Assembly: GCA_032622095.1 (NCBI GenBank)
Contig: CP136063.1
Span: 115,464,723 to 115,528,722 of the forward strand
Direction of reading: 5' to 3'
Origin: Siphonodentalium dalli
Lineage: Eukaryota > Mollusca > Scaphopoda > Gadilida > Siphonodentaliidae
Length of the DNA: 64,000 nucleotides
Positions 1,671 through 56,184 of the stretch are shown here, piece after piece. Each line of letters begins with the position of its first letter. The stretch's first letter is position 1. The notes under the pieces are model-generated. The model ran no database searches. It had not been told where the DNA came from and was given only the letters and a program-made list of their open reading frames with translations. The position numbers and the translations under genes are program-made.

Positions 1671-2969
1671 ATTTTAGAATAAATAACAGAATCTTCACGG
1701 AAAGTCGGTATTGAATTTGATGTCATGGAGAGTCAATTTAATATTATTTTAAATTCCACCATTGACTCAGTCTCTACTATGTATGCCGGTAGAGCATTCC
1801 AGCTACAACAAACTCTCTCTAGGAAAAGAAGTCTTTCCTCACATCTTTGTTGTTATGTCCTAATGATAGTTTATAAGAATGTCCTCTGATCGACATGTAG
1901 GTCGATCTTGTGAACAGCAATTCTGGATTAACATTGTAGAATCCCTTCAAGAGTTTGATCACCTCTATCAGATCTCCCCTTAACCTTCTGTACTTAAGGG
2001 ACACAACGTGTAGAATAACCATTCTGTCACGGTAAGAGTATGACCGAAACCACGGAACCATACGCGTGGCTCGTTTTTTGTCACTTTCTAACGATCTTGA
2101 GTGTTTGAGGAGATGGGAATCCCAAATATGTTGGCAATACTCGAGAATTGGACGAACCATTGTTGTATATAACCTCTTGAAGGTTTCTGAATCTAATTCA
2201 GTGAACGTTCGCCCAAGAATCTGGTTTGCCTTCGATACTACCGCACTAACTTGTCGTTCGAATTTAAGTTTGTCAATAAAAATACTAAGGTCCTTTTCTG
2301 TTTCCGTTGGTAAAATCGATAGTTTTCTCAAGCGACTCTCACTAAAGGTGCCCCCAGCCAACACAGCGCTGGACCCCACGCATATAATTCACCCTACTAC
2401 ATTCATTTCTTATAGATAGCGTTTTGATGTTTTATTCCCATAAACAGCTGAGTGTATTCTTATTTATTTTCACAAAAAGTCAACGATATTAATAACTGGT
2501 TTCAGATGAAATTCGCTTTTAGCGATTAGGTCAACAATTTGAGACGTGTTCGTGTTATGATCTGTGTTATTGGGCTATAAAACGATTGAATAAATTGACA
2601 GTGGACCAATCACGTACGGAACAGGATTTAGTGTAACACAGACGGGCAAAATATGTAAATATATACAATTATACATACACATGCTGTATTATTTTACCAT
2701 GCCAGGAATATACCATCAAGGAAGTTGAAGGAACACCCTTTATTGTTCCATGTTGAAGAATTCGGGGCCGACTGTTTTAAATTCTATGACTTTTTTTCAT
2801 GTGGAATATAAAGTCCATTTATATCTTCAAATGGGAAATGCGCTGGTGCAGCATTAAATACGATGTGTCAGTGTATTCTCTTATATAAGTGAGTCTCCCA
2901 TAGGGAGCCTCACATATATACAAGAAAATGCACTGGCTTATACTAGGTCAAGGTAATATTGTTAGGCCA
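1671..2969. repeat. Tandem duplication, copy 2 (1299 bp)
   Basis: Identical to 372-1670 as far as can be read. It is followed directly by the second palindrome of the DH-TTAA-b element, which shows copy 2 holds the original right junction. At the breakpoint only AT is shared between the two sides. Confidence 0.9.
1733..2379 (-). pseudogene. LINE reverse transcriptase C-terminal fragment, second copy
   Basis: Same 186-codon stretch and same frameshift after VRKDFFS as at 434-1080. The decay therefore came before the duplication. Confidence 0.8.
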
Positions 2970-3084
2970 ATGTATTCTCTTAAATATGCGAGGCTCCCAT
3001 AATAGGAGACTTGCATATATAAGAGAATGCATTGGCACAGGGTTTTCTCAAAATTTCAGGAAGCTCCAGTCATCGAAGGGTTAA
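2837..3084. mobile_element. DH-TTAA-b MITE (CCCTTTCATGACTGG family), degenerate left end
   Basis: Two palindromes (about 2868-2939 and 2968-3037) separated by a short linker. The right terminus, GGAAGCTCCAGTCATCG then AAGGG-TTAA (TTAA 3081-3084), is the reverse complement of the left end of the intact relative at 55557. The left terminus is too diverged to place. Confidence 0.7.
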
Positions 3085-5159: not shown

Positions 5160-5374
5160 TACAGTAATGCTCTAAGTAATCGACCCCTTAACCACAGCAG
5201 AATTATGGGTAATTTTTCAGGATTTAGTCGGAAATATGGCTTGTTGCCATTCATCGGAAAGCTCTCCCGAGAGCTTTCCGATGAATGGCAACAAGCCATA
5301 TTTCCAACTAAATCCTGAAAAATTACCCATATTCTGCTGTGGTTAAGGGGTCGATTACTTAGAGCATTACTGTA
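5160..5374. mobile_element. PAL-TA palindromic MITE, complete
   Basis: TA-CAGTAATGCTCTAAG on the left and GAGCATTACTG-TA on the right. The two ~105-bp arms are near-perfect inverted copies (..GGATTTAGTCGGAAATATGG..) meeting at CTCTCCCGAGAG. The TA flank and short CAGT start suggest a Tc1/mariner/pogo-type non-autonomous element (inference). Good reference copy for the family. Confidence 0.92.
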
Positions 5375-7257: not shown

Positions 7258-7657
7258 TTAACCCTTTACCCAACAAACCGGCCAAAACTGGCCAAATAAA
7301 GTTTCAACAGCCTAAAATATCTTCGGTCTGTCTCAATAGAACCATACAAATATGGATATCATTAGAACCGGCTCCTTGACCACATTGTGATAGTTACAGT
7401 TATGCCATGTGCCAATGCATTCTCTTATATATGCGAGTCGACCATAGGTCGCCTCGCATATATAAGAGAATGCATTGGCCTAAAAAAAATCTTTTTTTAA
7501 CACTTTTTACCATTTTTTCTTACATTCTTTAACAATTTTATAATTTTTAATGTGTTAAGCCAATGCATTCTCTTATATATGCGAGGCGACTTATGGTCGA
7601 CTCGCATATATAAGAGAATGCATTGGCACAGGGCCCTTCTGTTGGGTAAAGGGTTAA
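7258..7657. mobile_element. DH-TTAA-a dual-hairpin MITE, complete (400 bp with TTAA flanks)
   Basis: TTAA at both ends (7258-7261, 7654-7657) with inverted termini CCCTTTACCCAACA and TGTTGGGTAAAGGG. Inside are two 69-bp near-perfect palindromes, 7411-7479 and 7559-7627, each starting GCCAATGCATTCTC and ending GAGAATGCATTGGC. The small asymmetry at their centres (CGACCATAGGTCG against CGACTTATGGTCG with flipped flanks) shows the second hairpin is an inverted copy of the first. An ~80-bp A/T-rich linker (CTTACATTCTTTAAC) separates them. No transposase. Confidence 0.93.
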
Positions 7658-7990: not shown

Positions 7991-8149
7991 AAAGATGAAA
8001 CATGATTCAATGATGGATAATGCAAGTATGGGAGTGAGTTGAGATGCAGGTTAAGTGAGTCCTCGTGAATTCATCACAGGATAGTGACATACTCATCTAT
8101 GAAGTGATATTGAGCAAAATTAAATTTGGAGCTATTTTATTAACCCTTT

Positions 8150-8478
8150 ACCCAACAGAAGGGCCCTGTGCCAATGCATTCTCTTATATATGCGAGTCGA
8201 CCATAGGTCGCCTCGCATATATAAGAGAATGCATTGGCTTAACACATTAAAAATTATAAAATGCATTCTCTTATATATGCGAGGCGACCTATGGTCGACT
8301 CGCATATATAAGAGAATGCATTGGCACAGGGCATAACTGTAACTATCACAATGTGGTCAAGGAGCCGGTTCCAATGATATCCATATTTGTATGGTTCTAT
8401 TGAGACAGACCGAAGATATTTTAGGCTGTTGAAGCTTTATTTGGCCGGTTTTGGCCGTTTTGTTGGGTAAAGGGTTAA
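8150..8478. mobile_element. DH-TTAA-a dual-hairpin MITE with shortened linker
   Basis: Same family as 7258-7657, opposite orientation. TTAA at 8150-8153 and 8475-8478, termini CCCTTTACCCAACA and TGTTGGGTAAAGGG. First palindrome 8170-8238. The second (about 8262-8325) has lost its first bases and most of the linker, joined at ATTATAAAATGCATTC. Confidence 0.9.

Positions 8479-9556: not shown

Positions 9557-9608
<52 letters not shown>
9557..9608 (+). repeat. 52-nt poly-C tract
   Basis: Uninterrupted C run between AAGTAA and GTTGATTC. The true length may differ because such runs sequence poorly. Confidence 0.95.
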
Positions 9609-9609
<1 letters not shown>

Positions 9610-9652
9610 TTGATTCATTTGTATGGATGTTCAATTAGAAAGTTCAACAATC

Positions 9653-9874
9653 TACAGTAATGCCCTAATTATTCGACCCCTTAACCACAGCAAAATTACT
9701 TACGGGTAACTTTTCAGGATTTAGTCGGAAATATGGCTTGTTGCCATTCATCGGAAAGCTCTCCCCGAGAGCTTTCCGATGAATGGCTACAAGGCCATAT
9801 TTCTGACTAAATCCTGAAAAGTTACCCATAATCCTGCTGTGGTTAAGGAGTTGATTACTTAGGGCATTACTGTA
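9653..9874. mobile_element. PAL-TA MITE, complete
   Basis: TA-CAGTAATGCCCTAATTAT to GGGCATTACTG-TA. Arms meet at CTCTCCCCGAGAG. A 4-base ACTT insertion sits in the left arm (AATTACTTACGGG). Confidence 0.9.
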
Positions 9875-10297
9875 AGTTGGAATTATTCGCGGGAACATGC
9901 CAACTAATAAATGAGGAGGAATCAACTATCCATGAGCCAGTATTCAGTTATCAAAGAGTTAATTGAAAAATGTTCCATTCCTTATTCTACTGTGCTCCAA
10001 ATATTGATTAATCATTTATAGAATAAAGGCAGCAACATGATCAGCACAGCTGAAACCAATCTGATTACTGCTTCAGTGCAGTGGGTGGTTCTAAACTACC
10101 TAGGGTTTCTCATGGGGGAAACAATCAGGATACATCATCTAATTTTAGAACAAGTCCCTGTTCTTGGAAGGCTTCTGTGTTAGCAGTTAATCAGAATCCA
10201 TGATTGAACTTGAGTATATTTCCCTATGGCTTTCTCAATCCAGAAGGTCCTATGTGAGATTAATATTTGTCTGCACAATGTTGAGTGTAACTCATTG

Positions 10298-18797: not shown

Positions 18798-19187
18798 TTA
18801 ACCCTTTACCCAACAGAAGAGCCCTGTGCCAATGCATTCTCTTATATATGCGAGTCGACCATAGGTCGCCTCGCATATATAAGAGAATGCATTGGCTTAA
18901 CACATTAAAAATTATAAAATTGTTAAAGGATGTAAGAAAAAATGGTAAAAAGTGTTTAAAAAAAGATTTTTTTAGGCCAATGCATTCTCTTATATATGCG
19001 AGGCGACCTATGGTCAACTCGCATATATAAGAGAATGCATTGGCACAGGGCATAACTGTAACTATCACAATGTGGTCAAGGAGCCGGTTCCAATGATATC
19101 CATATTTGTATGGTTCTATTGAGACAGACCGAAGATAATTTAGGCTGTTGCAGCTTTATTTGGCCGGTTTGTTGGGTAAAGGGTTAA
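18798..19187. mobile_element. DH-TTAA-a dual-hairpin MITE, complete
   Basis: TTAA 18798-18801 and 19184-19187, ends CCCTTTACCCAACA and TGTTGGGTAAAGGG. Palindromes at 18828-18896 and 18976-19044, linker as in 7258-7657. Same orientation as the copy at 8150. One CTCGAC-type centre has changed to GGTCAACTC. Confidence 0.92.
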
Positions 19188-23036: not shown

Positions 23037-23430
23037 ATAGTGTGTATGTCATTTGCAGAATGAGGTACCAGAGGGTGAATTTAGTGACACTATCCTGCAC
23101 GGCAGGCTAGCATCACCAAATTCACCCTCTTGGGGACCTCATTCTGCTTAGGCCTCAACTGCTATGGGAGAACTAGGATCAGATTGAATTCCCCAGTTGA
23201 CGTTGTTGATGTTCACCCATTAGTCACCTCAATTATGCATTTTATCTTCTGCAAATTAGGGGATACAGAAACTTCCCAGAAGGGGAAAAAGTAACTAAAA
23301 ACAATGTTATTTTGAGACTATAGATATTTACAGAAGATGAATGTGTTGATGCTACATATCCCGCTGTTTGGGATAGCGTCACTAAATTCACCCTCTGGGG
23401 ACCTCATTCTGCAAATGACAGACACACTAT
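23037..23430. mobile_element. DH-GAGG dual-hairpin element, subfamily A
   Basis: Ends ATAGTGTGTATGTCATTTGC and its inverse GACAGACACACTAT. Both ends carry hairpins built from GCAGAATGAGG and GAGGGTGAATTTAGTGA with their complements (CACCAAATTCACCCTC, CCTCATTCTGC). The second hairpin is partly decayed. The linker contains GTTCACCCATTAGTCACCTC. Class unknown; no clear TSD. Confidence 0.85.
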
Positions 23431-48726: not shown

Positions 48727-48974
48727 CCCAGGTCTTCAATGACTGAAGCTCACTGAAAATTTGCGAAAACCCTGTACCAATGTATTCTCTTTAATATATC
48801 AGTTAGTCTCCCTATGCATATATAAGTGAATACATTGGCCTAACAATATTTACTTTGACCATGTAAACCAGTGCAATATCTTATATATACGAGGCTGTCT
48901 ATGGGAGACTTGCATATATAAGAGAATGCACTGGCATATGATCTTTAATGCTGCTCTCGTCATGAAAGGGTTAA
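48727..48974. mobile_element. DH-TTAA-b dual-hairpin MITE, diverged
   Basis: Left end degenerate (CAATGACTGAAGCTCACTG), then GAAAATTTGCGAAAACCCTG. Hairpins at about 48777-48837 and 48869-48934. Right end CTCGTCATGAAAGGG-TTAA (48971-48974). More mutated than 55557-55878. Confidence 0.8.
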
Positions 48975-55055: not shown

Positions 55056-56184
55056 CTGCAAAAGACATCGAAAAATGCATCAGATCATACACCCTGCATG
55101 CAGAATGACTTATCACGCTGACAACTTGATGAGATGCATAAAACATTTGATCTCACCATTCCCACTATGTTGGGTGGTAATGTATTTTTAGGCTGGCGTT
55201 GTTATTTCACTCTTCTCATTTATCCATGAACCATCATAGCTTATGAGCCAAGCAAATTTCTGGCTTAACCATTGCAGAAATAAGATGGAATGTGGGCTAG
55301 TCAGAATTACATTCTTGGAAAAAATGTTTTTATTTCTGAAGTATTACTGAGAACATTCTTATTTATTATAGATATGGCTTATATATATAGATCTACATTG
55401 ATACTCAGGACAATTTAAAAAAAATGCAAATCTTCAAGAAATAAAGTTCAATTAGATAAGTCTTCAATCTAATGAAATCAGAGAAAGGTAGAACACTTAA
55501 TTAACCAATGCAAGCGAAGTGGTTCAATTTATGGAGAAAACAAACCAAAAGGTCTATTAACCCTTTCATGACTGGAGCTTCCTGAAATTTGCGAAAACAT
55601 TGTGCCAATGCATTCTCTTATATATGCGAGTCTCCCATAGGGAGCCTCACATATATAAGAGAATACATTGGCCTAACAATGGTTACCCTCACATTGTAAG
55701 CCAGTGCATTCTCTTACATACATGTATGCAAGGCTCCCTATGGGAGACTCACATATATATATACCTCAGGATTTAGTTGGAAATATGGCTTGTTGCCATT
55801 CATCATACATGTAAGAGAATGCACTGGCAAAGGATAATTAATGCTGCACAAGTTCAGCTCCTGTCATAAAAGGGTTAAGAGCAACCTTGTGCACATCATT
55901 GAGTATGAAGTTTTGAAGTAACAAAAGAAGGATGTTTTAAATCTACAACAGGTTTGGTCGTCTCATTTATGGTCATATACATTTACATGCAAGTCAAACG
56001 ACGAGACACGGTGGTGAAATCTCATATGCACATGATATGTCTACATCCAATATCGGCAGTGTTTACACTCGACATTGTTAACACAGCAAACTAAGAACCA
56101 AAACGTGATGCAGCAATGTACACAGACTGCTTTCGCACTTGCTCGTCAAAACACAAACACAACACGCAAAAGTTAGGAACGCAC
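55056..56184 (-). other. Intron A-B (1129 bp)
   Basis: Donor GAATG/GTGCGT at 56184, acceptor GTCTTTTGCAG at 55056. Contains one DH-TTAA-b MITE. The rest is AT-rich with no further exon seen. Confidence 0.88.
55557..55878. mobile_element. DH-TTAA-b dual-hairpin MITE, second hairpin invaded by PAL-TA sequence
   Basis: TTAA 55557-55560 and 55875-55878. Left CCCTTTCATGACTGGAGC, right GCTCCTGTCATAAAAGGG. Hairpin 1 at 55607-55673. Hairpin 2 starts CCAGTGCATTCTC at 55702 and ends GAGAATGCACTGGC at ~55829. Its right arm is split by ~40 bp of PAL-TA arm (CTCAGGATTTAGTTGG to GTTGCCATTCATCA). Confidence 0.9.

Follow-up and report, generated by a model that had tools for sequence, protein, structure and literature searches.

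A polarised 69-bp hairpin module in several MITE types of Siphonodentalium dalli: distribution, inherited variation and possible role

A near-perfect 69-bp palindrome occurs twice, in mutually inverted orientation, in a MITE at positions 7258-7657 of the window, i.e., the 64,000-nucleotide stretch of Siphonodentalium dalli DNA analysed here. The palindrome belongs to a module that is common to MITE types (designated a to e) with different ends and target sites. Within type a, represented by the element at 7258-7657, the hairpins have far fewer inherited changes than their surroundings, and private changes are as frequent in them as in the left arm of the element. On balance, these sequence comparisons incline us towards a cis-acting hairpin module that a non-autonomous DNA transposon carries in two inverted copies, that is constrained while the element propagates and that has been exchanged among MITE types. 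Some MITEs amplify to tens of thousands of copies although their autonomous partners are rare. A constrained sequence that lies outside the transposase-specific ends, and that is shared by elements differing in ends and targets, would be a direct handle on this disparity.

The type-a element, its relatives in the window and insertion at TTAA

The element at 7258-7657 (forward strand) is 400 bp long, counting the TTAA at each end, and has full-length matches in the genome. Its left end (7258-7275, forward) consists of TTAA followed by CCCTTTACCCAACA, and its right end (7640-7657, reverse) is the left end inverted; the two 18-bp ends match perfectly and read TTAACCCTTTACCCAACA. The left arm (7276-7410, forward, 135 bp) is devoid of the hairpin module, has 17 inherited variant sites and, as read from the sequence, holds an imperfect palindrome CCGGCCAAAACTGGCC at bp 17-32 after the TTAA. 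It is followed by hairpin 1 (7411-7479, forward, 69 bp), an AT-rich linker (7480-7558, forward), hairpin 2 (7559-7627, reverse), which is hairpin 1 inverted, and 12 bp comprising the CCCTGT flank and the gap up to the right end (7628-7639, reverse). The arms of each palindrome, 33 and 32 nt long, are 97% complementary, and the two hairpin units are mutually inverted with 80-nt arms of 96% complementarity. Each palindrome contains a single mismatched pair near the loop, T.C (on the outer side) in the first and G.A on the forward strand in the second, which indicates one unit in inverted orientation. The first-pass annotation had described a TTAA-flanked MITE with two such palindromes, the second reversed relative to the first; the former is confirmed at 7258-7657, and the latter is borne out by the complementarity and by the orientation of both centre and flanks.

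The window contains two further type-a copies, both oriented oppositely to the first. One of them (8140-8478, reverse) is internally shortened to 339 bp, with hairpins at 8170-8238 and 8260-8325, one of which lacks 3 bp at its inner end. The other (18798-19187, reverse) has hairpins at 18828-18896 and 18976-19044. Thus, the starts given earlier for the copies at 7258 and 18798 stand, and the one placed at 8150 moves to 8140. Type-b ends are unlike those of type a and are clearest at 55557 (TTAACCCTTTCATGACTGGAGC). The type-b MITE at 55557-55878 (forward) has one hairpin at 55604-55672 and a second at 55700-55828 that is interrupted by other sequence. Two decayed type-b MITEs with approximate left ends lie at 48727-48974 (forward; hairpins 48776-48839 and 48867-48935) and 2837-3084 (forward; hairpins 2867-2937 and 2966-3036). 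The three b relatives that had been listed at 2837, 48727 and 55557 do exist, but they are decayed, with a discontinuous second hairpin near 55.7 kb in the last. Another type-b hairpin (1568-1638, forward) lies in a tandem duplication, within its upstream copy.

The exact 18-bp type-a end occurs 91,621 times (45,789 + 45,832) in the 2.23-Gb genome, compared with 0 + 0 for the reversed end used as a control, so the abundance is far above chance. The best 40 full-length genome matches are 98-100% identical, which indicates that type-a copies are young; most of them are near 400 bp. Type a agrees with the definition of a MITE in the available text of PMC5199201, namely a non-autonomous element of <800 bp with inverted ends and a high copy number. 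At some places type-a ends are regularly spaced, by ~14.6 kb (C1:735542-785694) and ~11.2 kb (C1:848468-915516), which suggests large tandem arrays.

To look for empty sites, the sequences on either side of 111 MITE copies were joined, and each junction was compared with every locus and with the window. Clear type-a junction matches were obtained for L002 and L003 (both inside an abundant window repeat), L011 (90% to L070), L020 (95% to L087, one flank of which is covered over 13 bp only), L022 (91% to window 23094-23200) and L029 (100% to L110 over 103 bp). The pairs L029/L110 and L020/L087 are reciprocal: each partner has a different MITE near the same place. Matches for L007, L008, L028 and L039 are weaker, and L035 matched itself. 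Since uninterrupted loci match the joined flanks, type a inserts at TTAA, in line with the first-pass annotation. The repeat that received the copies L002 and L003 is an abundant sequence of ~100 bp with TTGTTGCCATTCATCGGAAAGC, found at window positions 5160-5374 and 9648-9879 and in many other places, in some of them as inverted pairs.

With its TTAA duplication and inverted ends starting with CCC (CCCTTTACCCAACA at both ends), type a resembles MITEs of the piggyBac superfamily, with which it shares a TTAA target with empty sites, a short non-coding body and a high copy number. It differs from them in carrying one 69-bp polarised palindrome per arm, shared with a non-TTAA type, and no transposase with type-a ends is present among those read.

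One hairpin module in MITE types that differ in ends and target sites

A 21-nt half-site of the palindrome has 150,862 + 150,689 exact matches in the genome, likely more than type a would account for. We read 26 hairpin loci that lie outside exact type-a pairs and type-c ends, a subset of such places taken from the first 100 places listed. By reading, they were sorted into six of type b, three of type a with mutated ends, eight of types c/d, five of type e and four with no assignable ends (L089, L092, L095 and L100). Three of the c/d loci (L084-L086) resemble one tandem array, another (L087) additionally holds a b-like hairpin, and the type-e locus L090 additionally holds b-like ones.

The types differ in their ends. 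The type-b end, TTAACCCTTTCATGAC.GGAGC, has 4,477 + 4,709 exact matches, many within tandem arrays; one such array (L125 and L152; C1:3257437-3273395) repeats every ~37 bp and looks like a satellite derived from the end of a MITE. Type c ends in TTAACCCTTTGAGTGCCAGG (7,409 + 7,560 exact matches) and has a single hairpin in L105-L111, and type d, with the end TTAACCCTTTCAGTGCCAGG, has a single hairpin in L088, L091, L094 and L104. Type e has two hairpins and GTGACCC ends (GTGACCCGCCATATCAAATCCAG; 9,725 + 9,788 exact matches). Among 18 type-e pairs, the duplication is ATAT in ten, ATTT in two, AAAT in one and AATT in one, the two sides differ in four (L090, L126, L127 and L138), and TTAA appears in none. 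Hence type e departs from the TTAA target of the piggyBac superfamily and duplicates four AT-rich bases instead; AWWT duplications are described for Sola2-type elements in the available text of PMC3627910. One type-e element (L137) is inserted within a type-b hairpin.

Despite these different ends, the consensus hairpins are identical at 69/69 positions among a-left, a-right, c and e, and at 68/69 in d, whose consensus was built from four sequences. The outer 23 bp agree between types at only 2-12 of 23 positions, with the exception of the related types c and d (22 of 23). Type b carries diverged forms of the a/c/d/e hairpin. Read inward from the element end, the module consists of CCCTGT, the 69-bp palindrome and usually CTAA or TTAA. 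The flanks and the centre give the same orientation for 191 of 192 hairpins (193 extracted, some of those counted stemming from duplicated regions), the exception being L164:2994, so the polarity of the module is fixed within the sample.

Type e shares the hairpin but has non-TTAA duplications, and thus the module does not depend on ends of the piggyBac type. The link to piggyBac-type elements made in the first-pass annotation therefore does not extend to the hairpin as such: it is also found in type e, with GTGACCC ends and no TTAA duplication. Where the same module sits in each arm of an inverted-repeat element, the dual hairpin follows. Nor do two hairpins appear to be needed, although their retention as a pair had been taken as a sign of function: each of the type-c elements L105-L111 has one, and the number of type-c ends suggests that one hairpin is enough for amplification. 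The same palindrome in elements with different ends suggests a shared part that may help elements spread. No description of a hairpin module shared between MITE types or superfamilies was found in the literature covered, in which subscription journals are sparsely represented.

Several known systems have features in common with type a. Mitochondrial double-hairpin elements are short mobile DNA with two hairpins as well; according to the descriptions available they are organellar, whereas type a is nuclear, has inverted ends and duplicates its target. Bacterial REP/BIME pairs and the subterminal hairpins of IS200/IS605 likewise represent inverted palindrome pairs or subterminal palindromes linked to mobility, but they rely on bacterial single-strand transposases.

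A Bcl-2-family open frame (PF00452, 1.8e-13 in L127) lies within a 1.4-kb type-e element (loci L126 and L127; C1:4550081-4550617), and in L126 it is read between two half-hairpins. The frame has at least 153 genome matches, including many full open frames and many inverted pairs, and resembles a gene that travels within a multicopy element.

Inherited changes, private changes and damage in the hairpins

The type-a alignment comprises 38 copies from 43 loci, drawn from the start of contig C1 and the three window copies. L036 and L037 provide no usable element, L001 is too long, and L003 and L032 were left out as likely duplicates of L002 and L019. A variant was taken as inherited if present in two or more copies and as private if present in one copy only. 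Shared-variant sites number 17/135 in the left arm, 11/79 in the linker, 2/12 in the right gap, 3/69 in hairpin 1 and 0/69 in hairpin 2. The hairpins together (3/138) thus differ from the left arm, linker and right gap (30/226, p = 2.3e-4) and from the left arm alone (17/135, p = 9e-4); two of the three sites in hairpin 1 involve L007, the hairpin of which is rearranged. With three or more carriers required, the values are 0/138 vs. 19/226 (p = 1.2e-4). Private changes, on the other hand, occur in 31/4918 cells of the hairpins vs. 40/4950 of the left arm (p = 0.34). The linker is also richer in private changes (33/2744 vs. 31/4918 in the hairpins, p = 0.012), so its excess is partly a matter of alignment or local mutation, and the left arm is the better control. 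After insertion, the hairpins decay ordinarily.

Type e adds little. Its alignment includes 12 of the 18 pairs (L126-L130 and L138 were left out), and shared sites again are fewer in the hairpins (1/138 vs. 20/284, p = 0.003), but the contrast is gone at three or more carriers (0/138 vs. 1/284). Private changes in type e amount to 22/1625 vs. 58/3233 (p = 0.28).

That inherited type-a variants nearly avoid the hairpins is the main evidence for a function during propagation, and homogenisation is its main weakness. It lends a measure of support to the earlier proposal that the hairpins matter for mobility. The principal rival to a constrained module is homogenisation among source copies: the palindrome would have arisen once, recombined between MITE types and hitchhiked passively without a function, the low variation being due to recent exchange or conversion among sources. 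Palindromes are easily broken and recombined, and the identity of the consensus hairpins across types may only mean recent exchange. The left-arm variation is indeed reticulate. Its 17 shared sites have 17 different carrier sets, so the variants do not form one block, and 26 of 66 pairs of 12 left-arm sites show all four gametes, which implies that lineages exchange sequence or mutate recurrently. Exchange between lineages could homogenise source hairpins and mimic constraint. Against this, private changes are as frequent in the hairpins as in the left arm, and hence the fixed copies do not look converted. Furthermore, exchange alone hardly explains why both hairpins avoid inherited change and the neighbouring sequence does not. 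We regard passive hitchhiking as unlikely, although it is the alternative to be taken most seriously.

Among 40 aligned type-a copies, 30 have both hairpins intact, six have hairpin 1 damaged and hairpin 2 intact, three have both damaged and one has a single hairpin. A hairpin is thus damaged or missing in 10/40, which counts against the constrained module, as does the recurrence of some of the deletion products below. Losses of 17-47 nt inside hairpin 1 with intact flanks are found at 589 places genome-wide. The 100 places listed represent 55 products, none of which is present in more than 11 places; the recurring ones are found in 11, 9 and 6 of these places. Among the same 100 places, 33 products are simple deletions with a mean microhomology of 2.0 (1.2 expected), and in seven places the centre of the broken hairpin is inverted, which is in keeping with exchange as assumed by the hitchhiking account. 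The losses look like slippage or hairpin-mediated deletions, and there is no large subfamily among those listed. Copies were also searched for in which the sequence after the left arm departs from CTGTG at all five bases. This test yielded 63 places vs. 1 in the control; at a chance of 0.75 per base, raised to the fifth power, it would catch roughly one in four hairpin-less copies and miss about three quarters. As read from the letters, 58 of the 63 still enter the module, in favour of its retention; of the remaining five (L169-L173), two lack hairpin 1 but retain hairpin 2, one is intact, and two have neither type-a ends nor the half-site.

Pairing of the arms was assessed in 126 young hairpins (136 minus L007:348, L037:278 and WIN:48867, with seven diverged ones set aside). 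Their arm changes include 74 one-sided and 0 compensated ones, with 0.4 double changes expected if the changes were independent. All 74 being one-sided, nothing indicates that pairing is maintained once an element has inserted. The compensatory changes that the first-pass annotation proposed to look for are therefore missing from current copies, and the lack of compensated pairs accords with a functionless palindrome. It also leaves the idea that pairing is kept via conversion within hairpins with no support in young copies. The diverged set gives another picture; it consists of 22 hairpins, mostly type b, hand-picked from 44 (duplicates and strongly truncated ones omitted), together with the core consensus. 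It shows 17 both-side cells vs. 7.6 in shuffles (reached in 0/500) and nine both-side pairs vs. 5.6 (reached in 15/500), both reflecting few independent events, and slid controls give up to eight both-side cells. The main double changes are the centre CGACC/GGTCG vs. CTCCC/GGGAG and A-T to G-C at pair 5; they may represent few, inherited events. The view that the dual hairpin is incidental, which the first-pass annotation had linked to copies with one hairpin or none and to arm changes free of pairing bias, is half supported: one-hairpin copies exist, and young arm changes have no such bias.

Transposases and possible roles of the hairpin

The genome has 128 matches to PF13843 (DDE_Tnp_1_7), some of them pieces of one gene. 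Twenty loci from this list (L041-L060) and 14 stretches found via homologues of the L054 protein were read. The closest transposases among them carry TTAACCCTTTACCCA ends; the closest end, TTAACCCTTTACCCATCACATCGGC, is present in four loci (L054, L065, L077 and L078), and none is identical to type a. Several homologues, 51-100% identical to L054, have ends beginning with TTAACCCTTTA(C/G)C. L054 itself contains a 680-aa open frame (PF13843, 2.1e-84; PF13842, zf-Tnp_2, 2.5e-6). The first 15 bases of its end, TTAACCCTTTACCCATCACATCGGC, are those of the type-a end, but it differs from base 16 on and has no half-site, and it was rejected as a partner. The half-site is absent, at up to four mismatches, from all 20 loci L041-L060, and in the further transposase pieces read the sole half-site is in a type-c MITE neighbouring L078. 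Another candidate, L001 (2,406 bp between type-a ends), proved to be a MITE with a nested TTAA insertion and no long open frame. Type-a tips with an unusual inner sequence occur at 247 places, ten of which were fetched. They include elements collapsed to 53 bp (L159-L161), MITEs in which one end is shifted or rearranged (e.g., L162, L164-L166 and L168) and tips with no partner end in the piece read (L163, L167 and L174); the pieces L159-L174 contain no open frame of 200 aa. Thus, the autonomous element with CCCTTTACCCAACA ends that had been anticipated was not found among the 20 + 14 transposase stretches and the ten fetched places.

The hairpin could be bound by the transposase, as a longer counterpart of the palindromic repeats recognised by the cysteine-rich domain (CRD) of piggyBac-type transposases. 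According to the available text of PMC7351741 and PMC11707139, the ends of piggyBac and piggyBat contain palindromes bound by CRD dimers, and one end of piggyBat contains three of them, of which the innermost lies at bp 107-120. There as here, TTAA elements have palindromes no more than ~120 bp from their ends, so position alone leaves this explanation standing, and the zf-Tnp_2 domain of the closest transposase read (PF13842, 2.5e-6) speaks in its favour. The sites described there are 14-19 bp long, however, compared with 69 bp here, and the transposase loci L041-L060 have no half-site. A stronger argument than position is type e, which has the hairpin with GTGACCC ends and no TTAA duplication; the palindrome is not tied to one transposase type. 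Transposase binding is accordingly quite improbable.

MITE-derived microRNAs have been proposed to act in small-RNA silencing. The least probable reading is that the hairpin acts as RNA, its transcripts folding into a stem of ~33 bp, close to the length of a microRNA precursor, that would feed or block such silencing: four hairpins do fold stably (z = -9.3 to -14.1), but this is expected of any long, near-perfect palindrome, the loop is only 3 nt, and no Rfam family reaches the gathering score in the window.

We prefer the constrained cis-acting module. Copies with a damaged hairpin would propagate poorly, which would place the action of the hairpin at the time when the element is mobilised or copied. 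Because the TTAA types a, b, c and d as well as the non-TTAA type e carry it, what reads the hairpin is probably not one particular transposase. The element tips would serve the transposase, and the hairpin would have a role at the DNA level, via host replication or repair, which we favour. Folded into a cruciform, or into a single-stranded hairpin at a fork, it may raise the yield of cut-and-paste, for example, by favouring donor-site repair from the sister copy; alternatively, a host protein bound to the hairpin may do so. A bolder and more doubtful version makes the palindrome itself a parasite of parasites: as a propagation cassette independent of any transposase, it would pass by recombination from one MITE type to another, unrelated one and, via a host factor, multiply the copies of its carrier.

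A few other features were encountered. Starting at the TTAA end of the L054 transposase, the sequence matches L065 over ~9 kb at 98%, up to the end of the data, so the 3′ end of L054 was not reached; this region, seen in L054, L061, L065 and L119, may represent an exceptionally long element or a block that was duplicated. The window contains identical 189-aa open frames at 520-1089 and 1819-2388, in a ~1.3-kb tandem duplication, with no Pfam match at 0.01. A run of 52 C is located at 9557-9608.
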